Shown in pieces: positions 4,863 to 20,861 of a stretch of DNA of 64,000 nucleotides; position 1 is the first letter of the stretch; each line of letters begins with the position of its first letter. The position numbers and the translations under genes were made by a program. The stretch is from positions 124,001 to 188,000 of the forward strand of contig JAAFIQ010000003.1 of NCBI GenBank assembly GCA_013298715.1, written 5' to 3'. The DNA comes from Bacteroidota bacterium (GTDB taxonomy: Bacteria > Bacteroidota > Bacteroidia > B-17B0 > Aurantibacillaceae). The notes under the pieces were generated by a model. The model was not told where the DNA came from, ran no database searches, and saw nothing but the letters and a program-made list of their open reading frames with translations.

Positions 4863-5330
4863 ATGCAACAAAAAATTACAAAGCCTTCTTTTAACGATAT
4901 ATACATGGATTTGGCGAGCCAGTTAGCGCTTCGCTCACATTGTGTGAAGGCGCAAGTAGGGGCAGTACTCACTAAGGATACTAGAATTATTTCTTTAGGA
5001 TATAACGGCCCTCCTGCTGGCACGCATAATTGCGATCAAGAATGGCCTAAAGAGGGTTGTCCGCGCGATAGTAAAGGAAGTTGTTCACTGGCATTGCATG
5101 CTGAACAAAACGCAATTTTGTATGCTTCAAAAAACGGCGTGAGTATGGCTGGGTCAACTTTGTATGTTACTTTATCTCCCTGTATCGCATGTGCTCGTGT
5201 TATATACACCATGGGAATTAAAAAAGTTTATTTTAAAGATAGCTATGCAAAATACAAAGGTTTAGTAAATGATGAGGGAGTTGATTTTTTAAGAAGATTT
5301 GGTGTTGAGGTATTAGAATACAAAAAATAA
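4863..5330 (+). CDS. dCMP deaminase family protein
   Basis: Zinc-dependent deaminase predicted to convert dCMP to dUMP, supplying thymidylate synthesis. The zinc and catalytic motifs are present: HAEQNAILYA (His ligand plus catalytic Glu) and PCIACARVIY (two Cys ligands); the N-terminal DIYMDLASQLALRSHC and the extra cysteine-rich loop CDQEWPKEGCPRDSKGSC are typical of the ComEB/dCMP deaminase branch rather than tRNA adenosine deaminase. Its length of 155 fits. The next gene starts five bases downstream, so the two may be co-transcribed. Confidence 0.92.
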   Translation: MQQKITKPSFNDIYMDLASQLALRSHCVKAQVGAVLTKDTRIISLGYNGPPAGTHNCDQEWPKEGCPRDSKGSCSLALHAEQNAILYASKNGVSMAGSTLYVTLSPCIACARVIYTMGIKKVYFKDSYAKYKGLVNDEGVDFLRRFGVEVLEYKK

Positions 5331-5334
5331 AAAC

Positions 5335-5664
5335 TTGATTAAAAAAATACTCTATACCTATTTCATCTTTTTTTTTGTAGGATTTAATGCAAATTCTCAA
5401 GATAAATCAAGTGGTACGGGACCTAAAGAAAAATCATTTACTAGCGAACGAAAACTAAGAAAAGTACTACGTAAAGAATCGCGCGAAAAGCGCCGAAAAG
5501 AGCGTGCTGAGCGAAAAGCAATAAAAAAGTATCACAAACGCTTACAAACTAAAAAAGTGCGTAAACGTATGAAAAAAAGTAAGCGAACGGCTACCCTTCA
5601 TAATGAAAATAAGCGTGAGTTTTTTTTAAAGCGATGGTTTAAAAAGAAAAAGAAACTCAAATAA
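5335..5664 (+). CDS. Small, extremely basic exported protein
   Basis: Unrecognised 109-residue protein with a TTG start, chosen because it gives a complete signal peptide (KKILYTYFIFFFVGFNANSQ) beginning right after the stop of the dCMP deaminase gene. The mature part is dominated by lysine and arginine (LRKVLRKESREKRRKERAER, KKVRKRMKKSKRTA, RWFKKKKKLK) with scattered glutamates, and looks helical or disordered. No domain is recognised. A role in binding nucleic acid, polyanions or the outer-membrane surface is only a guess. The upstream coupling to a core-metabolic gene may be accidental. Confidence 0.6.
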   Translation: MIKKILYTYFIFFFVGFNANSQDKSSGTGPKEKSFTSERKLRKVLRKESREKRRKERAERKAIKKYHKRLQTKKVRKRMKKSKRTATLHNENKREFFLKRWFKKKKKLK

Positions 5665-5752
5665 TTTCTTCCACTTATTTTTTAAAAAGTACCACTTATC
5701 AAGTTTACGTTACCACCTCTTTACCTGTTAAATATTTTAACATGTGGAATGT

Positions 5753-5760
5753 TAACTTTG
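5753..5760 (+). promoter_or_regulatory. Candidate -7 box (TAACTTTG) upstream of the TonB operon
   Basis: Exact match to TAnnTTTG in the 249-bp gap before the TonB-receptor gene; transcription from it would give a leader of about 150 nt. No good -33 element is seen. A short perfect inverted repeat (GTTAAA-TAT-TTTAAC, 5727-5741) lies just upstream and could be an operator. Both are weak, motif-only observations. Confidence 0.3.
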
Positions 5761-5913
5761 TGATAAAATTAGAAGTTGTTAATTCGAGTTAAAATATTAA
5801 ATGTCTGATTATTAGTAGTTTATGTTTTATTTGATATTTTTATTTGTAAATTTTAACTAGTTACCCTAATTTTAAGGCTTTTAAGAATTTAGGATTTAAA
5901 TAAATTTAACAGT

Positions 5914-8900
5914 ATGATTAAAAATTTATTATTTGCGTTGGGATTAGTTTTATTGTTTGGCCTTAGTGCTAAGGCGCAAACCGGCAACGGTGCAATAAAA
6001 ATTACGTTAACTGATAAGGCCACTAAGGAAACCATTCCGTTTGCTAATGTGGTTGCTTATAAAGATGGTGTACAGGTTGGTGTTGCTACTACCAATATGG
6101 ATGGGGAGGCCGTAATTAAGCCATTAGCGCCAGGTAAATATACTGTTAAAGGTGTGTATGTAGGCTACCAAGCTGCCGAAGTTAAAGATGTTTTGGTTGG
6201 TGATGGTAAAACAGCTGAAATTAAAATACCATTGTCGAATGGAGAAGGAGTTAAATTAGACGAAGTTGAGGTTATAACTTATATGGTGCCTTTAATAGAT
6301 CCTGATACTAAATCGGGTGCTACTATTACCCGCGAAGATTACCAAAATTTGGCAACTAAAGATGTAAACTCGGTTGCTGCAACTACTGCAGGGGTATTTC
6401 AAGCAGATGAGGGTAAATCTTTAAGCGTTCGTGGTGGACGTTCGGGAGCTACAACTTATTTTGTGGATGGTGTAAAGGTGTTCGGTTCTCCTAATTTACC
6501 GCAACAATCAATAGAACAAATTGGCGTTATTACAGGTGGTGTACCAGCTATGTATGGTGACTTAACTTCGGGGGCAATTTCCATTTCAACGCGTGGTCCT
6601 CAATCAAAATATTTTGGTGGAATTGAATTAATTTCCTCTCAGATTACTGATCCTTATGGTTACAATTCCTTAGGTTTTAGTTTTGGCGGACCGATTTATA
6701 AAAAGAAAGATTCAACCAAACGTACTGTTTTAGGTTTTTTTATCTCAGGTCAAGGTAACTATATAAAAGAACCTAATCCGTCTTTTGTACCTATTTATGT
6801 TTTAAAAGATGAAAAATTGCAAGAAATAAAAGATGCTCCTTTACTTCCATCCCCTTCTGGTGTTGGATTTGTAAAAGCTTCTGAATTTGTAACAAAGGAT
6901 GATATGAATGCTCAAAAAACACGTCCTAATGCACGTAATAGAAGCATCTCTTTAAATGCAAAAATTGATTATGCTCCAAGCGATAATACAAATATTACTT
7001 TAGGTGGCTATTTCGATTATAATGATAATCTTAATGCTAGCGCAAATAACCAAATGTTTAATTCGGTTAATAATGCTTTAACAACTAATCGAACATTACG
7101 CGGTACAATCGGTATTACTCAAAAATTCGGAAAATCAGCTAAAAATAAAGAACAAGCGCAATCTTTATTGCAAAATTCATTTTTTAGAGCCTTGTTAAGT
7201 TATGATAACTTGTATTCAAGGTCAATGGATGCAAAACATAAGGACAATATTTTTAGAGTTGGTTATGTAGGTAAGTTCAACAGAAGATTCCTAGAAAAAG
7301 ATTTCTCTTTCAATTATCAGTTTAATGAAAATTACAATGGAAGTAATGCATACTTATACACTGGGAGAAGAGAAATTGCTGGGACATTTGAGGCAGGGAC
7401 CTACAATCCTGATGCAGTACAATATACAAGCTATTTAATTAGTCAAATAAATCCCAACTTTCTGTTTCCTGATTTTTTAGCTGCTAACGGTGGTTTAAGA
7501 AACGGAGATGCTCCTCAAAGCGTATACTCGCTGTATAATAATTTTGGTAGAACGTTTGCTGGTAATTCTAAAAATATTACTGAACAATGGCGTTTTACTT
7601 CAAGTTTTAACACCGATATTAAAAATCACGCTATTACTTTTGGAGTAGAATTTGATCAGCGTATATCAAGTAATTTTGGGTTTACAGGTGCTGGTACTAC
7701 AGGTCTTTGGACAAGAATGCGTTTGTTGGCAAATTCGCACACAGAAAATTTGGATAAATCTTCAGGTAAATTAGAAACGCAATTTAGCTCAGTAGTTCCT
7801 TATTATTCGTTCGACAATTTATATGAAGAGAATAAACAAAGTCAAATTTCTGAAAGTATTTTAAACTTATTAGGCTTACCAAAAAATTACACTGGTTTTG
7901 TTAATACAGATGAATTAAACCCAGATGATTTAAAATTATCCATGTTTAGTGCAGAAGATTTATTAGGAAATAATGACGCAGTAAATTTAGTAACTTATAA
8001 TGGATTTAGCGCACAAGGCGAAAGAACTGGTGGTAAAACTAATATTACTAATTTTCTTGAGGCTAAAGATGCAAATGGTAGAAGAACATTTGAAATCGGT
8101 TCATTCAGGCCAATCTACTCTTCGGTTTATGTAATGGATAAGTTTGAATTCAAAGATATTAAATTTAACATAGGCTTACGTGTAGATAGATATGACGCTA
8201 ACCAACAAATATTAAAAGATAAATTTGCTATGCACGATTTAGCAAAAGTAGGTGATTTAAAATCCTTAGATTATTTACCTGCTGGATTTACTGATAACAT
8301 TCCACAGAATATATCTAAAGATGCGGCGGTTTATGTGAAATCAAATCCTTCTAATGGAAAATCTCCAACTGCAATTACAGGATATAGAGAAAATGAAAGA
8401 TGGTTTGATGCTGCGGGTAATGAGATTTCAGATCCGAGCCTAATCCAGTCTGATGACGGTAGAGCTATCCCTCTATATAAAGATAGAGAAAATTACAACA
8501 AAAAAATGTCTGCAGGAGCGTTTACAAATTATGCTGCTGCAATTAATGCAATGCCACGTGTAGCATTCTCTTTTCCTATATCAGATGTAGCAAACTTTTT
8601 TGCCCACTATGATATATTAACTCAACGCCCAACAAATAGTGTATTAAGCCCATTAGATTATTATTTTCTTGACGCTTCGGGTAATACCCCACAAATTTCA
8701 AATCCTAACCAACGTCCTCAACAAACTATTGATTATGAGTTAGGTTTTGCACAAGTATTAAACGAGCGTAAAAACGCATCTATTACAATTACCTCTTTTT
8801 ACCGTGAAATGCGTAATATGATTAACCAACGTTTGGTTGTTGGTGCTTACCCTAGACAATACATCATGTTTGATAATATTGATTTCGGAACAACTAAAGG

Positions 8901-9633
8901 TTTATCCTTTACTTTTGATTTTAGAAGAACTGGGGGATCAAGAATTAATTTTAATTATACGCTTCAATTTGCTGAAGGTTCTGGTTCGAATGCTAACTCA
9001 GGAGCTAACTTAGCATCTACCGGCCAACCAAATTTACGTATTCTTCAGCCTTTAGACTTTGATCAACGTCATAGTTTTGTATTAAACTACGATTATCGTT
9101 TTGGTAGTGAAAAAGATTATAAAGGACCATCTTTTAAAAAGAAATCAGGTAAAGTTGTAAAGGTATTTGAAGATGTTGGATTAAATTTATCATTTATTTT
9201 AGGCTCAGGTACACCTTATACACGTTGGAGTCAAGCCGTTCCTTTTGATGGATTTACTGGGGGTGGAAGATCAAGCTTACTTGGGCAAATTAATGGTTCT
9301 AGCAAACCTTGGGCATTTAGAACGAATTTAAGGATAGATAAAAACATACCACTTACTTTTGGTAAAAAAGATGGTGAAGATAAAAAAACTGCTAATTTGA
9401 ATATTTACTTACAAGTTTTAAATTTATTTAATAACAGAAATATTTTAAATGTTTACAATTACACTGGTAATCCTGATGATGATGGTTATTTATCTTCAAC
9501 TCAGGCTATAAACGCTTTAAAGTTGGCTAATAGTGCTCAAGCATATTCTGATTTGTATACCGTTAGAATAACAAGTCCAAGCAACTTTAGTTTACCACGT
9601 CAAATTCGTATTGGTGTTTTATTTGAATTTTAA
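5914..9633 (+). CDS. TonB-dependent outer-membrane receptor with carboxypeptidase-regulatory-like domain
   Basis: Large outer-membrane receptor of 1239 residues. In order: signal peptide (about 1-21, ending SAKAQ); a carboxypeptidase-regulatory-like domain (about 27-105, with TIPFANVVAYKDGVQVGVA and PGKYTVKGVYVGY); a plug domain (about 125-230, with SVRGGRSGATTYFVDGVKV and GVPAMYGDLTSGAISI); then a long 22-strand-type barrel ending in the phenylalanine-terminated strand RIGVLFEF. Such receptors are energised by TonB-ExbBD and import ligands or, in Bacteroidota, cooperate with surface proteins. It is not followed by a SusD homologue, so it is not a classical glycan-uptake pair; it is followed after 17 bases by a large exported protein and a PorV/PorQ-like barrel. 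Confidence 0.9.
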   Translation: MIKNLLFALGLVLLFGLSAKAQTGNGAIKITLTDKATKETIPFANVVAYKDGVQVGVATTNMDGEAVIKPLAPGKYTVKGVYVGYQAAEVKDVLVGDGKTAEIKIPLSNGEGVKLDEVEVITYMVPLIDPDTKSGATITREDYQNLATKDVNSVAATTAGVFQADEGKSLSVRGGRSGATTYFVDGVKVFGSPNLPQQSIEQIGVITGGVPAMYGDLTSGAISISTRGPQSKYFGGIELISSQITDPYGYNSLGFSFGGPIYKKKDSTKRTVLGFFISGQGNYIKEPNPSFVPIYVLKDEKLQEIKDAPLLPSPSGVGFVKASEFVTKDDMNAQKTRPNARNRSISLNAKIDYAPSDNTNITLGGYFDYNDNLNASANNQMFNSVNNALTTNRTLRGTIGITQKFGKSAKNKEQAQSLLQNSFFRALLSYDNLYSRSMDAKHKDNIFRVGYVGKFNRRFLEKDFSFNYQFNENYNGSNAYLYTGRREIAGTFEAGTYNPDAVQYTSYLISQINPNFLFPDFLAANGGLRNGDAPQSVYSLYNNFGRTFAGNSKNITEQWRFTSSFNTDIKNHAITFGVEFDQRISSNFGFTGAGTTGLWTRMRLLANSHTENLDKSSGKLETQFSSVVPYYSFDNLYEENKQSQISESILNLLGLPKNYTGFVNTDELNPDDLKLSMFSAEDLLGNNDAVNLVTYNGFSAQGERTGGKTNITNFLEAKDANGRRTFEIGSFRPIYSSVYVMDKFEFKDIKFNIGLRVDRYDANQQILKDKFAMHDLAKVGDLKSLDYLPAGFTDNIPQNISKDAAVYVKSNPSNGKSPTAITGYRENERWFDAAGNEISDPSLIQSDDGRAIPLYKDRENYNKKMSAGAFTNYAAAINAMPRVAFSFPISDVANFFAHYDILTQRPTNSVLSPLDYYFLDASGNTPQISNPNQRPQQTIDYELGFAQVLNERKNASITITSFYREMRNMINQRLVVGAYPRQYIMFDNIDFGTTKGLSFTFDFRRTGGSRINFNYTLQFAEGSGSNANSGANLASTGQPNLRILQPLDFDQRHSFVLNYDYRFGSEKDYKGPSFKKKSGKVVKVFEDVGLNLSFILGSGTPYTRWSQAVPFDGFTGGGRSSLLGQINGSSKPWAFRTNLRIDKNIPLTFGKKDGEDKKTANLNIYLQVLNLFNNRNILNVYNYTGNPDDDGYLSSTQAINALKLANSAQAYSDLYTVRITSPSNFSLPRQIRIGVLFEF

Positions 9634-9635
9634 TA

Positions 9636-9641
9636 AGGAGG
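9636..9641 (+). promoter_or_regulatory. Strong Shine-Dalgarno sequence (AGGAGG)
   Basis: AGGAGG lies nine bases before the ATG at 9651 and three bases before an ATG at 9645. The normal 5-9 base spacing favours the start at 9651 (protein beginning MKKLLITL). Most genes in this window have A/T-rich leaders with no such motif. Confidence 0.7.
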
Positions 9642-9650
9642 AAAATGATT

Positions 9651-12600
9651 ATGAAAAAGCTATTAATAACCTTAAGTATCTCAGCAGCCTTAGTTGCTTC
9701 TGCTAAAGAAAATGCTGCTGTTTCGATGAGACAAAAGCAAAAGGATTCTCAGCAAAGCCTTAATCAAAGGGTAATGTCTGCATGTGCAGCTGCCAGAGGA
9801 AGTGCAGAATTAAAAACAAATAATGTTCGTACAATTATTTACACGGGTGGCGACATGTGGTGGGATCAGTTCGGTAGTGGTAACGCACGTTATATTATAC
9901 CAAAAGTTGAAGTTTTAGCGAATGGTATTTCCTCAAGTTTTGCTGGCTCAATCTGGTTAGGTGGTTTAGATGCCGGAGGAACGTTAAAGGTTGCGGCTAT
10001 GACATATCGTCAAAATGGTAGCGATTTTTGGCCTGGACCTCTAGATATCACAAATGCCTCTGCCGATCCAGCTGTGTGTTCACAGTATGACCAATTGTTC
10101 AGAATGACAAGAGCTGAGGTGGATAATATGGTTTTAAATGGTTCATCACCTAGCGCAAGTATTTTAAACTGGCCGGGTAATGGCGATTTTTTGAAAAATC
10201 AAGACCCAATTTTGGCGCCTTTTGTTGATGTTAATAACAATGGAATTTATGAGCCAACCTCTGGTGATTATCCCTCTTATGATGTTTTTAATAGAATAGA
10301 TAACAAAGATGACAAAGGATTTTGTAAAGCTAAACTATTTGGTGATGAAACCCTATTTTGGGTTTTTAATGATAAAGGAGACGTGCATACAGAAACTCAA
10401 GGTGTTGCAATTGGTGTTGAAATAAGAGCTCAGGCATTTGCCTTTAAAACAAATGACGAAATTAATAATATGACTTTCTATAGTTATGAGATTCATAATC
10501 GTTCTTCATTTCAGTTAAATAAAACATATTTTACTATCTGGAATGATGCAGACTTAGGGTATTATTTGGATGATTATGTTGGTTGTGATGTAGGTCGTGG
10601 ATTAGGTTATATTTACAATGCGGATCCATTTGATGAAACTGCTGCTGGAACGAATGGTTATGGTGATTTTCCACCTGCATTGGGTTGTGATTTCTTTAAA
10701 GGTCCATTAGCTGATTTAAACGATGGTATAGATAATGATTTTGATGCAAGCCAAAGTGGTCAATTTGCTGGAACTGATGAAAAAGGAGAAACTATTCAGA
10801 TGAGTCGTTTTACATATTATAATAATAATATAGGAGCTTTCCCACCTCAAACTACAAACCCAGATATCGCTATTCATTACTATAATTTTATGACTGGTTT
10901 TTGGAAGGATGGTTCACCATTTACTTTTGGTAATAATGCCTATGGTGGAACTCTACCTTACACATTTGTGTATGATGGAGACCCTGTGAACAACACTGGT
11001 TGGACTGAAAAAAATTCTGGAAACCTTCCAGGGGACAGACGGTTCTTACAATCAGCTGGACCTTTCACGTTAAAACCTGGGGCTGTTAATGACATTACAT
11101 TTGGTATGCCTTGGGCTCAAGCTCCCACTAAAGGTGGAAATATTGAGTCAATAAGACTTCTAAGGTCTGCTGATGATAAAGCTCAGGCTTTGTTTGATGC
11201 ATGTTTTAAAATTCTTGATGGTCCTGAAGCCCCAAACATGACCATACAAGAAATGGACAAGGAAATGATTTTTTATTTAACCAACAAACGTGGTAGTAAT
11301 AATTACAAGCAGTTTAACAACGATTATAACGAAGAAGACATTTCTATAGTATCTGATCCAACTTCAACTATTACTGCTCTATCTAATCCAGATAAATTTT
11401 ATAAATTTGAAGGTTATATCGTTTATCAAGTAAGAGATGCTGGGGTTTCTTCTACAGATTTAAGTGATAGAACAAAAGCTATTCCTGTTTTTCAGTGCGA
11501 CATTAAAAACGGCGTTTCTCGTTTGATTAACTTCGAGCAAGATAACAATGTGGGTCAATTGGTTCCAAAGATTAAAGTAGAAGGTAACGATAATGGGGTA
11601 GTATCAACCTTTAAATTAACAGAGGATGCATTTTCTACCCTTGAAAATAGAAAATTCGTTAATAATAAAACCTATTATTTTGTATCTGTGGCCTATGCTT
11701 ACAATAACTATTTAACTTATGCTCCTGATGTTCCAGTTTCAGTTAATCCAGCAGCAAATGTTTTAGGTCAAAAACGCACTTACCTTGAAGGTAGAAATAT
11801 AAAAAGAGCCGCAGGTATCCCGCATATTACCGACACTGAAAAGGATGGGACTATCTCTCAAGCAGCTTACGGTTTTGGCCCAAAAATAACCAGAATTGAA
11901 GGTCAAGGTAATGGAGGTAATTTTATTACACTTACCAAGGCTAGTGAGGATGCTATTTTGGCTAATAATTTTGTTCCTGAAATTACTTATGAGAACGGAA
12001 AAGGACCTATCAACGTAAAAGTTGTGGATCCATTAAACGTAATTAATTCTAATTTTCAATTCAAGTTACGTTCTAATTTGGCCACGAATACGGGAACTGC
12101 AGCCTCTACGTTCTCTTTAGCACTCCCAACTACAACTGCTGGAGCGATGTTAGGCGATGTAAATGCAGATCTATCAAGTTGGGAACTTTACGATGTTACC
12201 AACAATAAATACTATTATCCAACTCCTGTTAACACGAGTTCAACTATATCTGGTGGGATTCCTGATAACAAATATCAACCAATTAGAAACGACAATGAGG
12301 TTTATTTCCCTGAATTAGGCTTATCCATTACCTTAAAACAGGTTGCTGACCCTGGAGAAAAAGTAAATTCTTTCACTGATTATGCATCTTTAAAAAATTA
12401 TGCAGGATTAGAGCCTGGAACTTTTTTAGGAGCATCACTTACTTATGAAAATGGAACTGCTAACTGGTTAATTCCACAAAAGGATGCTGATGGTGTTCAA
12501 AACCCTACTAACTGGATTTTAAGTGGAACAACCAAATTTTCTGATAAACAAAACAGATATGGGTCTGACGCCTATTATAATTTAGATGGTGCAGAGCAGC

Positions 12601-14162
12601 CTGAAACATTTGTTGACCCAACCAAGCAGTTTGGCAACATATTAGAAGGAACTTGGGCGCCTTATACCTTGTGTTCTTCATTCTATCGTTTAGCAGCTAA
12701 TGTTGCGGGTGGTAATACTCGTTGTTTTGGCGGACCTGCTCTAAGCGGCTATGTTTGGAAAAACGACGATGCAATTTTACGAAGTGAAGGTTTAGGAATT
12801 ACCGCTACTGATGTTTATGGTCTTCCAGGCACTATGAACCCTAATGAAGGGGCATCTGATTTACGTCGTTTGTCCAGTGTTGTAATTGTTTACACTAAAG
12901 ATAAGTCTAAATGGACACGTTGTCCAGTTATCGAGATGCAAGAACGCTATACCTTAAGTGAAGGGAATGCTGTTTTCTTTTCTCCAAGAAATCATGCGTC
13001 AATCGACAAACAGGGCATTTCTTTCGGAGCTCCTGGTTGCAATACCGCAGAGGCTTCAATTACATCTACTGCGAGTATGGGTTGGTTTCCTGGATATGCG
13101 ATAAGCATCGAAACAGGTGAACGTTTAAATATGATGTATGGTGAAGATAGTTACCAAAAAGAAAATAATGGTGATGATATGATTTGGAATCCCACTAATT
13201 CGAGCACAGGTTCAAGTTTTTCAATGGGGGGTAAGCATTTCGTGTATGTTTTTTCTGCAAATGCCATAACAGGTCAGTTTAGAAAAATAAGTAATGCCAG
13301 TTGGCAAGAAACAAGTGAACCTAATAGTTTAATAGGCAACAATATTGGTTCACCTAGGTACGATCAAGGCGCCCATGCATATAACATTTTAAGCAAATTT
13401 TTCCGTAAAGATCCTTCATTAGGATTCCCTTCTTATAATGCTGGGAATAATGCAGCACCAATTGAGTGTTTAACGCGTGATATTATGTGGGTTTCAATGC
13501 CAATGGTTAGAAATGGTTTTATATTTAAGGACCCTGCAAATATGCCATCTGATGTTAGAATTCAGATTAATGTTACAAAGCCTTATAGATTCGGTTATAC
13601 TGGGATCGTCGATGTTACCAATAATCCTGCGGGAACATCTCTTGGTTTATTAAACAAATTAGTTGCTGTAAGAAATTTCACTTCATTAACAACCTTTACA
13701 GCTTCTAACCCTCAAAATGGTAATTTACCAATGTATAAATTTAATACAAGTGATATTGCTTCCTTGTTTGGACAAACCGATGTTGCTAAGAACTCTTTAG
13801 ATTTAATTAAAGTTGTTCCTAATCCTTATTATGGGTCATCTTCTTACGAAACAAAACGTATTGATAATCGTGTTAGAATCACTAACCTTCCTAACAAATG
13901 TACTGTGAAAATTTTTACAATGAATGGAACCCTGGTGCGCACGCTTAAACGTGATGTGAGTGATCAAGAAGATATTGGAATTGCAAATACAGAAATTAAA
14001 CAATCTAAACGTATACCTTATATGGATTGGGATTTAAAAAATCAAAATAATATTTCGGTAGCAAGTGGATTATACATTTTCCATATTGATGCACCTGGAA
14101 TTGGAGAAAAAATTGTGAAATGGTTTGGTGTTATGCGTCCGCTTGATGTTCAAAATTATTAA
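9651..14162 (+). CDS. Large exported protein with T9SS-like C-terminal domain
   Basis: Exported protein of about 1503 residues with signal peptide KKLLITLSISAALVASA. The N-terminal third carries a pattern I recognise from large Bacteroidota secreted proteins: GGDMWWDQFGSG, SFAGSIWLGGLDAGG, TYRQNGSDFWPGPLD, followed by aspartate/asparagine-rich loops such as VDVNNNGIYEPTSGDYP and LNDGIDNDFDAS that could bind calcium. The C-terminal about 110 residues (VVPNPYYGSS, VKIFTMNGTLVRTL, ASGLYIFHIDAPG) resemble the Ig-like FlgD/T9SS sorting fold, so type IX secretion to the surface is likely. No enzymatic motif is seen. It lies between a TonB receptor and a PorV/PorQ-family gene with short gaps and very probably belongs to the same operon. 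Function unknown. Confidence 0.85.
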   Translation: MKKLLITLSISAALVASAKENAAVSMRQKQKDSQQSLNQRVMSACAAARGSAELKTNNVRTIIYTGGDMWWDQFGSGNARYIIPKVEVLANGISSSFAGSIWLGGLDAGGTLKVAAMTYRQNGSDFWPGPLDITNASADPAVCSQYDQLFRMTRAEVDNMVLNGSSPSASILNWPGNGDFLKNQDPILAPFVDVNNNGIYEPTSGDYPSYDVFNRIDNKDDKGFCKAKLFGDETLFWVFNDKGDVHTETQGVAIGVEIRAQAFAFKTNDEINNMTFYSYEIHNRSSFQLNKTYFTIWNDADLGYYLDDYVGCDVGRGLGYIYNADPFDETAAGTNGYGDFPPALGCDFFKGPLADLNDGIDNDFDASQSGQFAGTDEKGETIQMSRFTYYNNNIGAFPPQTTNPDIAIHYYNFMTGFWKDGSPFTFGNNAYGGTLPYTFVYDGDPVNNTGWTEKNSGNLPGDRRFLQSAGPFTLKPGAVNDITFGMPWAQAPTKGGNIESIRLLRSADDKAQALFDACFKILDGPEAPNMTIQEMDKEMIFYLTNKRGSNNYKQFNNDYNEEDISIVSDPTSTITALSNPDKFYKFEGYIVYQVRDAGVSSTDLSDRTKAIPVFQCDIKNGVSRLINFEQDNNVGQLVPKIKVEGNDNGVVSTFKLTEDAFSTLENRKFVNNKTYYFVSVAYAYNNYLTYAPDVPVSVNPAANVLGQKRTYLEGRNIKRAAGIPHITDTEKDGTISQAAYGFGPKITRIEGQGNGGNFITLTKASEDAILANNFVPEITYENGKGPINVKVVDPLNVINSNFQFKLRSNLATNTGTAASTFSLALPTTTAGAMLGDVNADLSSWELYDVTNNKYYYPTPVNTSSTISGGIPDNKYQPIRNDNEVYFPELGLSITLKQVADPGEKVNSFTDYASLKNYAGLEPGTFLGASLTYENGTANWLIPQKDADGVQNPTNWILSGTTKFSDKQNRYGSDAYYNLDGAEQPETFVDPTKQFGNILEGTWAPYTLCSSFYRLAANVAGGNTRCFGGPALSGYVWKNDDAILRSEGLGITATDVYGLPGTMNPNEGASDLRRLSSVVIVYTKDKSKWTRCPVIEMQERYTLSEGNAVFFSPRNHASIDKQGISFGAPGCNTAEASITSTASMGWFPGYAISIETGERLNMMYGEDSYQKENNGDDMIWNPTNSSTGSSFSMGGKHFVYVFSANAITGQFRKISNASWQETSEPNSLIGNNIGSPRYDQGAHAYNILSKFFRKDPSLGFPSYNAGNNAAPIECLTRDIMWVSMPMVRNGFIFKDPANMPSDVRIQINVTKPYRFGYTGIVDVTNNPAGTSLGLLNKLVAVRNFTSLTTFTASNPQNGNLPMYKFNTSDIASLFGQTDVAKNSLDLIKVVPNPYYGSSSYETKRIDNRVRITNLPNKCTVKIFTMNGTLVRTLKRDVSDQEDIGIANTEIKQSKRIPYMDWDLKNQNNISVASGLYIFHIDAPGIGEKIVKWFGVMRPLDVQNY

Positions 14163-14171
14163 TGTATAGTT

Positions 14172-14176
14172 AGGAG
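14172..14176 (+). promoter_or_regulatory. Shine-Dalgarno sequence (AGGAG)
   Basis: AGGAG lies six bases upstream of the ATG at 14183, in the 20-base gap after the large exported-protein gene. Together with the site at 9636 it makes the two downstream genes of this operon stand out from the SD-less genes around them. Confidence 0.6.
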
Positions 14177-14182
14177 AAAGTT

Positions 14183-15247
14183 ATGATAAAAAATTTAAAA
14201 TACATTGGTTTAAGCACTATTATTGCTTGCTCAACCCTTCATGCAGGAAATCCTGAACGTGCTGGACAAGCAGGCGCTGGACAACTTTTAATAAATCCTT
14301 ATGCCCGTAATTCGGGTATGGTAGGTGCAAATTCTGCTAAAGTTAGAGGTTTAGAAGCTCAGTTTCTTAATATAGCAGGAACTGCCTATACACGTAAAAC
14401 CGAAATAATTTTTAACCGTACAGCTTGGTTATTGGGTACGGATATTAATATTAATACTTTTGGTTTAACCCAAGGTATTGGTGAAACTAGTACAATAGGT
14501 TTTGGTGTAATGGCTATTAATGCTGGTAAAATTGATATTACTACTGAAGAACAGCCTGAAGGTGGTCTAGGTACTTATCAACCAACATTTCAAAACATTA
14601 GCTTGTCTTACGCCAAAATGTTTTCTGAAGCTATTTTCGGTGGGATTAACATTAAGTTAATTAATGAACAAATTCCTAATGTATCAGCTAAAGGAGTTGC
14701 AATTGATGCTGGTATTCAATATCATACGGGTAAATACGATCAAATTCATATTGGTATAGCACTAAAAAATTGGGGACCAAAAATGACTTACCGAGGCGAT
14801 GGTTTAAGTCGTCAAGCCACCACGAATTATGGTGGTAATTATGAATTAACTGTAAACAATCGTTCTGGTGCGTTTGAATTGCCAGCGCTGGTAAATATCG
14901 GCGGAGCTTATGATATTTATCTTTTAAAAGACAGTAGTGGTGTTTCAAAAAAGCATAGAATTACTTTAAATTCAACTTTTACTTCAAATTCTTTTACTTA
15001 CGACAATCTTTTATTCGGCGTAGAATATGCTTGGAAAGATATGTTAATGCTTAGAGGAGGTTATATGTACGAAAAGGGAATAACAAGTAGTGCTGACAGA
15101 AGAACTGTGTTTACTGGTCCGGCGCTTGGTGCTACGTTTGAAGTTCCATTTAATGAGAAAAAATCTACCGTTGGTTTTGATTACTCTTACCGTTTTACCA
15201 ATCCGTTTGGTGGATCACATACTTTTGGATTACGTGTGAACTTATAA
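14183..15247 (+). CDS. PorV/PorQ family outer-membrane protein
   Basis: A 354-residue barrel with signal peptide (NLKYIGLSTIIACSTLHAG) and the family's opening pattern: GQAGAGQLLINPYARNSGMVGANSAKVRGLEAQFLN-type segment followed by repeated strands (IIFNRTAWLLG, ISLSYAKMFSEAIFGGINIKL) and a terminal VNL strand. PorV is the FadL-like barrel that shuttles cargo from the T9SS translocon to the attachment complex; this family also includes paralogues of unknown cargo. Its position directly after a large T9SS-like exported protein suggests a dedicated partner rather than the housekeeping PorV, which is inference. An AGGAG Shine-Dalgarno lies upstream (14172-14176), and a terminator follows at 15276. 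Confidence 0.85.
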   Translation: MIKNLKYIGLSTIIACSTLHAGNPERAGQAGAGQLLINPYARNSGMVGANSAKVRGLEAQFLNIAGTAYTRKTEIIFNRTAWLLGTDININTFGLTQGIGETSTIGFGVMAINAGKIDITTEEQPEGGLGTYQPTFQNISLSYAKMFSEAIFGGINIKLINEQIPNVSAKGVAIDAGIQYHTGKYDQIHIGIALKNWGPKMTYRGDGLSRQATTNYGGNYELTVNNRSGAFELPALVNIGGAYDIYLLKDSSGVSKKHRITLNSTFTSNSFTYDNLLFGVEYAWKDMLMLRGGYMYEKGITSSADRRTVFTGPALGATFEVPFNEKKSTVGFDYSYRFTNPFGGSHTFGLRVNL

Positions 15248-15275
15248 GAAAAAATTATTATTTTTGAATTTAATT

Positions 15276-15309
15276 AAGAGTCCCGAATTTATCGGGATTC
15301 TTTGTTTTT
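15276..15309 (+). terminator. Rho-independent terminator of the TonB/PorV-like operon
   Basis: An 11-bp stem (AAGAGTCCCGA pairing with TCGGGATTCTT, one G-U pair) with a five-base loop is followed by a T-rich tract. It lies 28 bases after the PorV/PorQ-like gene and 17 before greA, so it closes the operon. Confidence 0.85.
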
Positions 15310-15325
15310 TATAACCTAAAATACT

Positions 15326-15799
15326 ATGTCGCAAGTTGGATATTATACCGAAGAAAGCTTAAAAAAATTGCAAGCCGAACTGCATCAACTAAAAACAGTT
15401 GAACGAAAAAAATGTACTGCCGCAGTTGCCGAAGCCAGAGATAAAGGAGATTTGAGTGAAAATGCCGAGTACGATGCAGCACGTGAGGCACAAGCTTTAT
15501 TAGAAGTTAAAATTGCTAAGTTAGAAGATGTTGTGGCTAATGCAAGAATTGTTGATGAAACAAAACTCGATTTGAGCAAAGTAAGTATCTTAACCACCGC
15601 TACAATTAAAAATACCAAAAACGGAGCATCTATGAAATATACCCTAGTTGCCCAAAGTGAAGCTGATTTAAAGGCCGGAAAAATCTCAGTTGACTCGCCT
15701 ATTGGAAAAGCGATTCTGGGTAAAAAGGTTGGCGATAAAGTAGATGTTCAAATCCCCGCAGGAACGGTTACCTTTGAGATTACAGAAATAGCAATTTAA
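15326..15799 (+). CDS. greA: Transcription elongation factor GreA
   Basis: GreA rescues backtracked RNA polymerase by stimulating cleavage of the transcript 3' end. The 157 residues match the usual length. The N-terminal coiled coil (about 1-75) carries the acidic tip signature RDKGDLSENAEYDAAREAQ, whose Asp and Glu reach into the polymerase secondary channel; the C-terminal FKBP-like domain contains SPIGKAILGKKVGDKVDVQ. It stands after a strong terminator and two bases before the HIT-protein gene, so it probably heads a new unit with it. Confidence 0.96.
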   Translation: MSQVGYYTEESLKKLQAELHQLKTVERKKCTAAVAEARDKGDLSENAEYDAAREAQALLEVKIAKLEDVVANARIVDETKLDLSKVSILTTATIKNTKNGASMKYTLVAQSEADLKAGKISVDSPIGKAILGKKVGDKVDVQIPAGTVTFEITEIAI

Positions 15800-15801
15800 T
15801 T

Positions 15802-16197
15802 GTGGGTAGCATTTTCACTAAAATAATTAATGGCGAAATTCCAAGCTACAAAATTGCGGAAGATGAAAATTTTTTAGCTTTTTTGGATGCCTTTCCTTTA
15901 AAGAAAGGACATGTGCTAGTGATTCCTAAAACAGAGGTTGATTATATTTTTGATTTAGATACAGATATGTATACTGGTTTGATGGCTTTTAGTAATCGTG
16001 TTGCAAAGGCTATTAAAAAAGCAATTGCATGCAATAGAATTAGTATACACGTTGTGGGACTCGAAGTTCCTCACGCACATATTCATCTTATTCCTATTAA
16101 TACAATGAATGATTGTAATTTTTCAAATTCAAAACTAAAATTAACCCAAGAGGAGTTTATAGAAATCGCATCACTAATAAAAAATAATTTTTTATGA
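15802..16197 (+). CDS. HIT family protein (nucleotide hydrolase/transferase)
   Basis: Histidine-triad protein of 131 residues, with the catalytic triad HAHIH (91-95) in VPHAHIHLIPIN and the typical opening SIFTKIINGEIPSYKIAE. HIT proteins of this branch hydrolyse nucleoside phosphoramidates or related adenylates; the exact substrate is not visible. The start is a GTG at 15802, two bases after the greA stop, because no ATG precedes the conserved opening. Its stop overlaps the next gene's start by four bases (ATGA), indicating translational coupling. Confidence 0.92.
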   Translation: MGSIFTKIINGEIPSYKIAEDENFLAFLDAFPLKKGHVLVIPKTEVDYIFDLDTDMYTGLMAFSNRVAKAIKKAIACNRISIHVVGLEVPHAHIHLIPINTMNDCNFSNSKLKLTQEEFIEIASLIKNNFL

Positions 16198-17600
16198 CAA
16201 AAATCAAATTCGGAACTGATGGCTGGAGGGCCATAATAGCTCAAGACTTTACTGTTGAAAACGTAGCCCGCGTAACTGAAGCAACAAGTAAATGGTTATT
16301 AGCTTCGCACAAAAATCCTACGGTTGTTGTAGGGCACGATTGTAGGTTTGCAGGAGAATTATTTGCTGCAACAACTGCAAAAGTTTTTATTGCTAATGGC
16401 ATAAAAGTTTTATTAGCTAAAGGATTTGTTAGTACACCAATGATATCACTTGGGGCCGTAAAATATAAAACCAATTTAGGAATTATTTTAACGGCAAGCC
16501 ACAACCCGCCATCTTATAACGGTTACAAAATAAAAGCGCATTACGGTGGACCACTTGGACCAGATGAAGTGCAACAGGTAGAAGATATTATTCCTGAAGC
16601 GGCTAACCAAAATTACCTGTCTGTAAATTTTTCTGAAGCGGAAGCCAAAGGACTGCTGGAATATGTTGATTTAGAAGATTTATACATCAAACATGTTGAA
16701 GCAAATTTTGATTTACAAGCAATTCGGAATTCAAATTTAGTTTTGGCTTACGATAGTATGTATGGTGCTGGACAACGTGTTATGAGTAAATTGTTTCCTA
16801 ACATTCATCATTTACATAACGACCATAACCCTGGTTTTCATGGGCAAGCGCCTGAACCAATTCATAAAAATTTATTAGAGTTTAGTAATTTTATAAAGGA
16901 AAAGAAAAACATTTCTTGTGGATTAGCGACTGATGGTGATGCTGATAGAATTGGACTATACGACAACGAAGGAAACTTTGTTGATTCGCACCACATTATT
17001 TTATTATTGATTCATTATTTAAAAAAATACAAAGGGCAAACAGGTAAGGTAGCTACAGCGTTTAGCACAACCGTTAAAATTAACAATATATGCAAGCATT
17101 ATAATTTGCCTTTAGATGTAGTAAAAATTGGTTTCAAATACATTTGCGGTATAATGGTGAATGAAGATGTATTGGTTGGTGGTGAAGAGAGCGGCGGTAT
17201 AGCTATTAAGGGACATATACCAGAGCGGGATGGGATTTGGATGGGGCTTACCATTTGGGAATTTATGGCCAAAACAGGAAAGTCGCTAAAAGAATTAATA
17301 CAAGAAGTTTACGATATTACTGGTACTTTTTGGTTTGAAAGGTACGATATGCATATTGATGAAAGTATAAAACAAAAAGTATTATCAAATTGTAAGAACA
17401 ATACGTATAAAACGTTTGGAAAATATAGTGTTAGTCGTGTAGATGATTTAGACGGATATAAATATTTTTTTGACGACAACACCTGGTTAATGATTCGTGC
17501 AAGTGGAACTGAGCCTGTTTTACGCGTTTATACTGAAGCAGCAACAAAAGAAAAAGCCTTTGATATTTTAGCGGATGCAAAAAATGTTCTGTTAAGTTAA
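16194..17600 (+). CDS. Phosphoglucomutase/phosphomannomutase family protein
   Basis: Alpha-D-phosphohexomutase of 468 residues that interconverts hexose 1- and 6-phosphates for envelope or storage polysaccharides. All four active-site regions are present: the phosphoserine loop TASHNP (S102), the metal loop DGDADR (247-252), the sugar-binding loop GGEESGGI and the phosphate-binding RASGTEPVLRVYTEA near the C-terminus. It starts KIKFGTDGWRAIIA, a form common in Bacteroidota enzymes of mixed glucosamine/glucose/mannose specificity, so the preferred sugar cannot be assigned. It is translationally coupled to the HIT gene and followed after nine bases by nadK. Confidence 0.92.
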   Translation: MTKIKFGTDGWRAIIAQDFTVENVARVTEATSKWLLASHKNPTVVVGHDCRFAGELFAATTAKVFIANGIKVLLAKGFVSTPMISLGAVKYKTNLGIILTASHNPPSYNGYKIKAHYGGPLGPDEVQQVEDIIPEAANQNYLSVNFSEAEAKGLLEYVDLEDLYIKHVEANFDLQAIRNSNLVLAYDSMYGAGQRVMSKLFPNIHHLHNDHNPGFHGQAPEPIHKNLLEFSNFIKEKKNISCGLATDGDADRIGLYDNEGNFVDSHHIILLLIHYLKKYKGQTGKVATAFSTTVKINNICKHYNLPLDVVKIGFKYICGIMVNEDVLVGGEESGGIAIKGHIPERDGIWMGLTIWEFMAKTGKSLKELIQEVYDITGTFWFERYDMHIDESIKQKVLSNCKNNTYKTFGKYSVSRVDDLDGYKYFFDDNTWLMIRASGTEPVLRVYTEAATKEKAFDILADAKNVLLS

Positions 17601-18563: not shown

Positions 18564-20861
18564 ATGAAAAAAATTGCAACACTAGGTTTGGCTTTATGCT
18601 TAAGTTCATTAAACATTTTTGCACAAACATCTAACGATAAAACTTGGAGCCAGATTGACGAGAGCAATGTAAATCCAGTTGGTAAACGTCAAATCGTTCC
18701 AAAAAAGTATTTAGTTTATACGCTTAATTTAACTGATTTAAAATCACAACTTAGTCAAGCGCCGTTAGATAAAAATGTACAAATCAATTATAGTAATTGC
18801 GTAATTTCTTTACCGCTTCCAAATGGAACTATTCAAAAATTTAAAGTGGTTGAAGCCCCGGTAATGGCGCCAGAATTAGCAGCTCAGTTCCCGGATATTA
18901 AAACCTATTCAATAAAAGGAATCGATGATGTTTACGCAAACGGAAAAATCGATTTCAATGAATTTGGATTTCATGGAATGGTAAGAACAATCAATGGCGA
19001 TTTTTTCATAGATCCATATTGTTTGCAAAACACCAAAGATTACATCACCTATTATACTGCAGATTTTGTAAAAGATCCGTCGCAAGTTATTCCAGAAGCA
19101 GGTTTAGAAAAACCAAACGAGACGAAAGAAACTCCAAAAAAAAAAGAAAGTGGCGAAGAAAAAGTAAGTAGTCTAAATCCTCCTGCCACGTGTGTTGGTA
19201 CTAATTTACGCACTTACCGCCTAGCTGTTGCGTGTACAGGTGAATATGCAGTTGCAGCTACAGGTTCTGCAACCCCTACAATGGCGCAAACTTTAGCAAA
19301 AATTGTAACAAGTGTAAATAGAGTAGATGGTGTTTATGAAACAGAAGTAGCAATTCGTATGGTTTTAGTACCTACACAAACTGCCATTGTTTTTACTACT
19401 GCATCTACTGATCCATTTACAGGAAATAACAATTCAAACACATTAATTAACGAATCGCAAGCGGTTATTACTGCTACAATTGGCTCTGCAAATTATGATA
19501 TTGGCCATACTTTTAGCACTGGTGGTGGTGGTTTAGCATTTTTAGGTTGTGTTTGTAGTAACAATAATAAAGCACGTGGAATAACTGGCAGTCCCAGCCC
19601 AGTTGGAGATCCTTATGATATTGATTATGTAGCACACGAAATTGGGCATCAATTTGGTGGTAATCATACGTTTAATGCAGTTAGCGGAAGTTGCAATGGA
19701 AATAGAAATGCTAGCACGGCTGTTGAGCCTGGTAGCGGCATTACAATTATGGCCTACGCGGGTATTTGTGGGTCAACGAATGATATTGCACCAAATAGTA
19801 TTGCTTACTTTCATGCAATTAGCTACGACGAAATTGTAAATTTTTCTAATTTGGCAAATGGTAACAATTGTGCAACAACCACCACAACCGGCAACAACCC
19901 ACCAGTTGTTACAGGTTCAGGTAATTTTGCAATTCCTATTTCAACCCCATTTGTTTTAACAGGGAGTGCAACTGACCCAAATAACGATCCTTTAACCTAT
20001 TCGTGGGAAGAAACTTCGGTTGGGACCGCAGGAGCAAACTGGAATGCTGGCACGCGTCCGTTTTTCCGTTCTTATAATCCAACCGCAGTACCAAGTAGAA
20101 CTTTTCCAATAAATGCAAATGCTAATTCTGGTGCGTTTCAAACAACTAAAGGAGAATTCTTACCATCAACAGCTCAAACATTACAATTTAGATTAACTGC
20201 TCGCGATAATAAAATGGGCGGCGGCGGCGTTTGTTACGCAATTAATTCTGTTTCAGTAATTGGTAGTGCCGGGCCTTTTAGTTTAACTGTGCCTAGTACA
20301 GCTGGCATTGTTTATGGTAGCGGAACACAACAAACTATTTTGTGGAATGTTAATAATACTGATATTGCTCCTATCTCTTGTACTGATGTTAAAATTTCTA
20401 TTTCTACCAATGGAGGTGCGAGTTATACTACTTTGGTGAATTCAACACCTAATGATGGTTCGGAGTTGGTAACCTTACCAACTGTTACGGCAAATATAAA
20501 TACATGCAGAATTAAAGTAGAGAGTATTGGAAATGTGTTTTACGACGTTAGTAATAATAATTTCACGTTGAGTATTAGTGTTGGTGTTCAGGCACAATCA
20601 AAAAATAATCCAATTGGATTAATTGCTTATCCTAACCCTGCGACTAATAATTTGTTTGTCGTTGCTAGTAGCTTAAACGGAAGTAATTCTTCCTTTATTC
20701 AAATTACAGATGTATTAGGAAAAGTAGTTTACAAAAACGAATTAAAAAACAAAGTTGAAATTAAAGAAGAAATTAATATAAGTAATTTTAATAGTGGTGT
20801 TTATTTTGTAAGTCTTGTAAATGGAGATAAACAATCTGTTTATAGATTTGTAAAAGACTAA
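18564..20861 (+). CDS. Secreted reprolysin-like zinc metallopeptidase with T9SS sorting domain
   Basis: Exported protease of 765 residues. Order: signal peptide (about 1-21, SSLNIFAQ), a pro-region to about residue 200 rich in lysine near its end (KETPKKKESGEEKV), a reprolysin-type catalytic domain with the zinc motif HEIGHQFGGNH (H358, E359, H362, H368) and the downstream IMAYAGICG met-turn, a fibronectin/PKD-like region, and a C-terminal T9SS type A sorting domain (LIAYPNPATNNLFVVAS, GVYFVSLVNGDKQSVYRFVK). This predicts secretion by the type IX system and surface attachment or release. Family members are degradative extracellular proteases; the substrate is unknown. It has its own transcription start region. 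Confidence 0.93.
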   Translation: MKKIATLGLALCLSSLNIFAQTSNDKTWSQIDESNVNPVGKRQIVPKKYLVYTLNLTDLKSQLSQAPLDKNVQINYSNCVISLPLPNGTIQKFKVVEAPVMAPELAAQFPDIKTYSIKGIDDVYANGKIDFNEFGFHGMVRTINGDFFIDPYCLQNTKDYITYYTADFVKDPSQVIPEAGLEKPNETKETPKKKESGEEKVSSLNPPATCVGTNLRTYRLAVACTGEYAVAATGSATPTMAQTLAKIVTSVNRVDGVYETEVAIRMVLVPTQTAIVFTTASTDPFTGNNNSNTLINESQAVITATIGSANYDIGHTFSTGGGGLAFLGCVCSNNNKARGITGSPSPVGDPYDIDYVAHEIGHQFGGNHTFNAVSGSCNGNRNASTAVEPGSGITIMAYAGICGSTNDIAPNSIAYFHAISYDEIVNFSNLANGNNCATTTTTGNNPPVVTGSGNFAIPISTPFVLTGSATDPNNDPLTYSWEETSVGTAGANWNAGTRPFFRSYNPTAVPSRTFPINANANSGAFQTTKGEFLPSTAQTLQFRLTARDNKMGGGGVCYAINSVSVIGSAGPFSLTVPSTAGIVYGSGTQQTILWNVNNTDIAPISCTDVKISISTNGGASYTTLVNSTPNDGSELVTLPTVTANINTCRIKVESIGNVFYDVSNNNFTLSISVGVQAQSKNNPIGLIAYPNPATNNLFVVASSLNGSNSSFIQITDVLGKVVYKNELKNKVEIKEEINISNFNSGVYFVSLVNGDKQSVYRFVKD

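Follow-up and report, generated by a model that had tools for sequence, protein, structure and literature searches.

A conserved Bacteroidota operon of a TonB-dependent receptor, a large exported protein and a PorV/PorQ-family barrel, and its proposed role in surface uptake

Why should a TonB-dependent receptor, a large exported protein and a barrel of a secretion-related family be encoded in a row? This question is raised by a 64,000-nucleotide stretch of a Bacteroidota genome (assembly GCA_013298715.1, contig JAAFIQ010000003.1, positions 124,001 to 188,000), hereafter the window. Three consecutive open reading frames on its forward strand encode the receptor (P0001, 1239 residues, positions 5914-9633), the large protein (P0002, 1505 residues, 9645-14162, or 1503 residues when read from 9651) and a 354-residue barrel of the PorV/PorQ family (P0003, 14183-15247). 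The original prediction, made from the letters of the window, took them for one operon in which the barrel exports or retains the large protein and the receptor is its surface partner. We found the three genes to be a conserved unit with a link to the type IX secretion system (T9SS). We further propose, with a probability of roughly 0.5, that this trio is a SusCD-like importer whose surface partner would be exported by the T9SS and anchored by the barrel, not lipidated.

In the proposed mechanism, the large protein would be exported via Sec and then through SprA, the T9SS translocon. Its C-terminal domain (CTD), which resembles those of PorU and PorZ, would dock on the cognate PorV-family barrel of the same operon, and this docking would shield the CTD from cleavage by the PorU sortase and keep the large protein on the surface. 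The N-terminal β-supersandwich would capture a ligand, most likely a glycan, and hand it over within a putative complex to the receptor, which would import it with TonB energy.

Conservation of the trio and its link to the T9SS

The three genes are separated by 11 bases (17 when counted from the second ATG of the large gene) and 20 bases, in agreement with the three-gene operon originally described with gaps of 17 and 20 bases. A match to the large protein was found in 59 of 61 genomes of the same family, some matches being fragments or paralogues of the N-terminal domain. The same-family set comprises 30 loci including that of the window; L016, L026 and L029 end at contig edges, and in all 27 loci with contig on both sides the receptor and barrel genes flank the large-protein gene. 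A scan of named bacterial genomes matched at least 590 stretches; a relative is encoded in 573 of them, from which the best 80 were kept. Among these, the order receptor, large protein, barrel is kept in 65 of the 75 Bacteroidia loci with at least 600 bases on both sides, spanning Bacteroidales, Flavobacteriales, Chitinophagales and unspecified Bacteroidia; intergenic gaps reach at most 116 and 330 bases. The 18 loci from other classes of the phylum, picked by their large-protein match (L068-L080, L093-L097), all carry the trio; the barrels of L069 and L072, as well as the receptor and large protein of L072, were located by tblastn. The expectation that the genes stay together across Bacteroidota thus agrees with the loci compared. 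Behind the barrel, 60 trio loci have 700 bases of sequence; greA is present in 56 of them and greA together with a HIT-family gene in 54. In the window this pair (15326-16197, forward strand, assigned by Pfam) is context and not a member of the unit, and its constancy suggests that the locus is old and stable within Bacteroidia.

The link to the T9SS was observed in a phylum sample of 296 genomes, in which two candidates were scored per genome. The large protein was detected at E ≤ 1e-40 in 50 genomes and SprA in 229 (228 above cut-off). SprA accompanies the large protein in all 50 genomes, and the large protein is missing at E ≤ 1e-40 from each of the 67 genomes that lack SprA (hypergeometric 6.6e-7, without correction for kinship). 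The same 8 of the 73 same-class genomes carry both the large protein and the barrel, the other 65 being without the unit. Trios whose large protein is more divergent occur in some genomes outside the 50 (e.g. L286, L287 and L291). The window's own genome encodes PorV and PorU.

The C-terminal domain and its candidate anchor

The original prediction expected a T9SS-like CTD recognizable by profile search. Residues 1386-1505 of P0002 (13800-14159, forward strand) match the profiles of T9SS_PorZ (4.6e-8) and PorU (8.5e-5), both better than the general type A model, so that the domain was recognized through PorZ and PorU while TIGR04183 gave 18.0 bits, below its cut-off of 23. Four orthologues from other families and classes scored 21.3 to 23.6 bits with TIGR04183. 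In hhalign comparisons, the CTD matched PorU at 95.5%, PorZ at 94.3%, PorU2 at 78.9% and a neighbouring cargo at 9.4%. The last hundred residues form seven strands, as in type A CTDs, in a model of a fragment of the orthologue L154; PorZ (5m11) is among the Foldseek matches of this model (5.6e-5, aligned range not shown). Past the last strand follows a conserved tail, MRPLDVQNY (14133-14159, forward strand), seen in the tails of the 80 loci and in the orthologue alignment. The CTD could instead be merely a FlgD-type Ig-like domain on a large protein independent of the T9SS, as weak FlgD_ig matches to P0002 might indicate. We consider this extremely unlikely, since these matches lie under the cut-off, the PorZ and PorU domains match better, and the large protein at E ≤ 1e-40 was seen only in those genomes of the sample that have SprA.

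PorU and PorZ are described, in the passages concerned, as keeping their CTDs uncleaved and held by PorV and PorQ (PMC5562754, PMC8545088), and a passage of a review suggests that cognate PorV-like barrels shield the CTD from cleavage (PMC10202324). As a control for ordinary cargo, we used a reprolysin-like metallopeptidase with a type A CTD (Pfam Por_Secre_tail) encoded at 18564-20861 of the window. Over 19 shared genomes, CTD identity to the window's genome averages 0.79 for P0002, 0.72 for PorU and 0.35 for this cargo; in the 8 genomes where a second cargo is present as well, the values are 0.79 for P0002, 0.71 for PorU, and 0.35 and 0.46 for the two cargoes.

These values bear on the explanation that P0002 is ordinary type A cargo, carried by PorV and cut by PorU, while the neighbouring barrel has another job. 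Both PorV and PorU are in the genome, and two distant orthologues reach the TIGR04183 cut-off (23.0 and 23.6 bits). However, the 150 TIGR04183 matches scored in its own genome (of 212 candidates) do not include P0002, the CTD of P0002 is far more conserved than those of the two ordinary cargoes, and the protein is regularly paired with a barrel. Ordinary cargo is therefore an improbable reading of P0002.

The assignment of P0003 to the PorV/PorQ family in the original prediction agrees with the family profile NF033709 (144.9 bits, cut-off 90). P0003 stays below the equivalog cut-offs of PorV (65.5 bits against 250), PorQ (68.6 against 220) and PorV2 (36 against 325). Its model (predicted local distance difference test, pLDDT, 85.9) has 14 long strands, as in FadL/PorV-like barrels. 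In the PDB, chain F of two T9SS translocon entries matches best (Z 32.8), namely 8gl6, in which the RemA CTD is bound, and 6h3i; we take this chain to be PorV. FadL, TodX and CymD are the next-best structures, with Z of 28.8 to about 26, and chains of the barrel assembly machinery (BAM) entries 9n2d, 9hiv and 9hjm gave Z of 23.9 to 25.7. A FadL-like channel for small hydrophobic compounds, beside a capture protein released or fixed in an ordinary way, would fit the second group of structures. The nearer T9SS translocon chain and the passed PorV/PorQ profile speak against such a channel, as does the context of another 20 PorV-family barrel loci, hand-chosen in other classes from the barrel match list: 18 of these barrels stand behind a large CTD protein and a receptor in a full trio, and the other two loci are cut by contig ends. 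We hold a channel function to be hardly probable.

In a tree of 32 barrels, the window copy belongs to a core clade (87/92), eight barrels form a second, sister clade (96/94), and PorV, PorQ and PorV2 fall outside the core clade on long branches. The window's genome encodes PorV beside PorU, and likewise PorU2 directly next to PorV2, both NCBIfam equivalogs (L087:3018-9079); PorQ is a further barrel, and PorQ and PorZ lie on separate contigs. P0003 thus joins the PorV-PorU and PorV2-PorU2 pairs as another barrel encoded next to a CTD protein. A reading as gliding machinery was dropped, as P0002 and P0003 have no CHU_C or SprF-type match in Pfam or NCBIfam.

The idea of a dedicated exporter or retainer is divided by these observations. 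Retention fits well because the CTD of P0002 resembles the retained, barrel-bound CTDs of PorU and PorZ. Export by the barrel is less likely, because export should pass through SprA, which is present in all 50 genomes with the large protein. P0003 is thus probably the cognate anchor of the large protein, and permanent anchoring is likely.

The receptor, the N-terminal domain and the putative ligand

P0001 has the plug domain of TonB-dependent receptors (Pfam Plug, PF07715, 34.4 bits, cut-off 23.9) and an N-terminal carboxypeptidase-like domain (CarboxypepD_reg, 43.2 bits, cut-off 32.3). Between these domains, residues 115-123, LDEVEVITY (6256-6282, forward strand), resemble a TonB box; the alignment of receptor orthologues has the consensus LxEVEVxxYxxPLI at this position, and the segment is the putative TonB box. 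Receptors with a plug and a TonB-box-like segment are mostly importers. P0001 has no match to the SusC/RagA family model TIGR04056 at E ≤ 1, and a receptor of the sister clade scores 49 bits against a cut-off of 368. Pfam matched SusD neither in P0002 nor in ten flanking genes, and the gene after the receptor is that of P0002, as foreseen in the description of a receptor without SusD.

No domain of P0002 scored above the cut-offs of Pfam and NCBIfam, glycosidase families of Pfam included, and only the CTD matches were convincing below them. PDB sequence searches with all three proteins gave nothing useful. The fold of P0002 was read from the model of the L154 orthologue fragment (1199 residues, pLDDT 86.9), in which a domain corresponding by residue mapping to about residues 47-524 of P0002 (9783-11216, forward strand) is predicted to be a β-supersandwich. 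Its best structural match is 9ju0_CCC (VIA-align Z 19.4, 253 residues, root-mean-square deviation 3.2), followed by 1lf6 and 1ug9 (both Z 18.4). The 50 matches listed (Z 14.7 to 19.4) are mostly enzymes of glycoside hydrolase (GH) types GH15, GH94 and GH116; dextran dextrinase, glucoamylase, glucodextranase, GH94 phosphorylases and GH116 enzymes are among those aligned. The shared part is presumably the β-supersandwich domain of these enzymes, to which the N-terminal domain of P0002 is predicted to correspond. Their catalytic helical (α/α)6 barrel was not matched in the model, and at least a fifth of the listed matches span only model residues 3-513.

N-terminal domains of this type are also found on proteins of about 570-920 residues away from a receptor and barrel (L089:3768-5471, L090:3158-11491 and L091:3908-5671). 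L090 carries three tandem genes with this domain, and the L089 protein, the only one scanned, has an ordinary type A CTD.

Putative calcium-like loops were noted by eye in P0002, DGIDNDFDASQSG. A pattern for such loops hit 12 of the 14 close orthologues, in 10 of which the loop is truly of the DG/DHxDN type, and 16 of 63 proteins in a wider set; shuffled P0002 sequences match in about 3%.

The context of sister-clade trios points to carbohydrates. The large proteins of the second barrel clade share the middle and CTD with the core ones, whereas their N-terminal domains are hardly alike in sequence, as would be expected if this domain meets different ligands. Among neighbour genes picked by eye and scanned, seven of eight second-clade trios adjoin carbohydrate-linked genes, L298 having none above cut-off. 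L285 has GH130 and an ABC importer, L290 an ABC solute-binding protein and LacI, L301 a GH9 and a carbohydrate-binding module (CBM) of family 9, and L284, L289, L296 and L299 have CBM20/48/53 proteins, that of L284 barely above the cut-off. The Pfam matches of the ABC parts name no sugar. In the literature, tonB, a T9SS protein and a PorV/PorQ protein are annotated in a row in the alginate locus of Rhodothermus marinus, and the section that describes them assigns no function (PMC9530828). Porphyromonas haem-uptake clusters are drawn, in the passage concerned, with a T9SS sorting-domain gene and a PorV/PorQ-family gene (PMC12106395).

Other features were seen around the trios. PPIC-type peptidyl-prolyl isomerase genes lie beside two sister-clade trios (L284:12167-13834 and L285:4102-5631), with similar-sized genes at comparable places in L289, L290 and L299. 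The L288 contig (5745-19658) carries a full trio and, about 5 kb past its receptor gene, another PorV-family barrel, which is probably a second unit.

The same synteny and CTD evidence would be given by a surface structure, such as an adhesin, coat or sensor, for which the barrel is a dedicated T9SS shuttle and anchor while the receptor signals or stabilizes. SprF-type shuttles serving putative adhesins, described in the relevant passage of PMC12618676, and the position of the core Bacteroidia trio beside greA, not in a carbohydrate locus, are in line with such a structure. However, the sister-clade trios adjoin ABC importers, GH130, GH9 and CBM proteins, an annotated trio of like kind lies inside an alginate locus, and receptors built like P0001 mostly import. 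We regard a surface structure as rather unlikely, and putative import of a glycan-like ligand through the receptor as having about even chances.

Several observations weigh against the proposed importer. The supersandwich fold may serve functions other than glycan capture. The window trio is surrounded by housekeeping genes, with no carbohydrate gene among ten flanking genes in Pfam, and the core-clade neighbours in L286, L291 and L300 show no carbohydrate domain above cut-off. The likeness of the CTD to PorU and PorZ is not exclusive, as the CTD of the neighbouring ordinary cargo matches both profiles too. In the second ordinary cargo, too, conservation is higher in the CTD than in the body (ratio 1.19 over 12 genomes, 1.22 over 8). 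The CTD-to-body ratio, 0.53 for the first cargo against 1.29 to 1.31 (PorZ, measured apart, 1.29), was dropped as evidence of retention, because with such a second cargo the ratio alone does not show retention; for this reason, the comparison above is confined to absolute CTD identity in shared genomes. The barrel profile (E ≤ 1e-30) matches in 145 of the 296 genomes, 95 more than the stricter count for the large protein, an excess that arises because other PorV-family barrels match too. Finally, 10 of the 75 named loci are without the full trio, 9 of them without an adjacent barrel.

The loci of the last kind were followed into their genomes. Of the 14 named loci without the full trio, L105 is cut by the contig and was excluded, and the genomes of the other 13 were searched. 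Ten hold exactly one barrel at E ≤ 1e-30, which for L165 is the adjacent one, and in nine of these ten a large-protein CTD is encoded directly upstream of the barrel. The view of these loci as counter-examples was rejected on these results. One barrel may serve several capture proteins per genome, since the partner-less copies retain the same CTD, and also the tail save in copies cut short; the CTD would then work as the address of a single barrel.

Operon boundaries and relation to known systems

For the start of the large gene, the ATG at 9651 is better spaced than that at 9645 from AAGGAGG, a sequence like a ribosome-binding site (9635-9641, forward strand). TTAGGAG at 14170-14176 is Shine-Dalgarno-like ahead of the barrel gene, and none was seen ahead of the receptor gene. 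A terminator scan found a hairpin with a T tail, like an intrinsic terminator, 3′ of the operon (15276-15302, forward strand). The original prediction counted on a strong terminator here; the hairpin and T run are present. Since positions 5000-17000 show no excess of terminator-like sites (7 against a shuffle mean of 7.5), the weight of the hairpin lies in its position only. Upstream of the operon, a DUF6962-family protein is encoded at 1890-2582.

SusC-SusD are glycan uptake pairs in which a TonB-dependent receptor has a dedicated large surface partner encoded next door. The trio receptor likewise has a large partner next door, and paralogous trios lie beside carbohydrate genes. The trio differs in its receptor, which by profile is outside SusC/RagA, and in the partner, which is no SusD protein and probably depends on T9SS export and a barrel, whereas the Sus partner is lipidated. 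The statement that the unit is not a Sus pair thus holds for membership, though the unit probably works like one.

The PorU-PorV and PorZ-PorQ attachment complex, as described in parts of PMC5562754 and PMC10202324, also combines a large surface protein, a related retained CTD and a PorV-family barrel. The pairs PorU-PorV and PorU2-PorV2 are gene neighbours in the window's genome, like the corresponding pair in the trio. However, P0002 resembles PorZ and PorU in the CTD only, P0003 lies under the equivalog cut-offs, and the trio has a TonB-dependent receptor as a regular third partner. By profile, the unit is neither a Sus pair nor a PorU-PorV or PorZ-PorQ pair, and its way of working seems to unite those of both kinds of pair.

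Other systems are comparable in part. Type B CTD substrates likewise share an operon with a barrel of their own, a cognate PorP/SprF shuttle, whereas the trio barrel is of the PorV/PorQ family and its CTD is type A-like; type A CTDs are all recognized by the PorV shuttle, according to the same passages (PMC12618676). In Rhodothermus marinus, tonB-hypA-hypB of the polysaccharide locus have the order of the trio, namely receptor, T9SS sorting-domain protein and PorV/PorQ protein; the likeness is one of annotation and gene order, and hypA differs in having only 2,181 nt (PMC9530828). BamG of the Bacteroidota BAM complex is, in the passage describing it, a FadL homologue that binds the surface protein BamH via extracellular loops; it sits with BamA, whereas P0003 is nearer to the T9SS translocon chain than to the BAM entries (PMC12578637). 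In titles and passages of the open-access literature, to which the search was confined (subscription papers and preprints lying outside it), no description of the trio as a system was found.

The proposal would give PorV-family barrels other than PorV and PorQ a function, and it describes an alternative to SusCD that needs no lipoprotein. The trio would also be a natural test of the protection of CTDs by cognate PorV-like barrels, as suggested in a passage of PMC10202324. More tentatively, and with odds somewhat short of even, the unit would be a third TonB-linked surface uptake machine, old in Bacteroidota and composed of a receptor, a giant T9SS-exported capture protein and a private barrel as the lasting anchor of its CTD. 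If true, this reading could account for many of the uncharacterized PorV paralogues across Bacteroidota. The usual model species are expected among the 65 of 73 same-class genomes without the unit, which, if true, would explain why the unit has gone unstudied.

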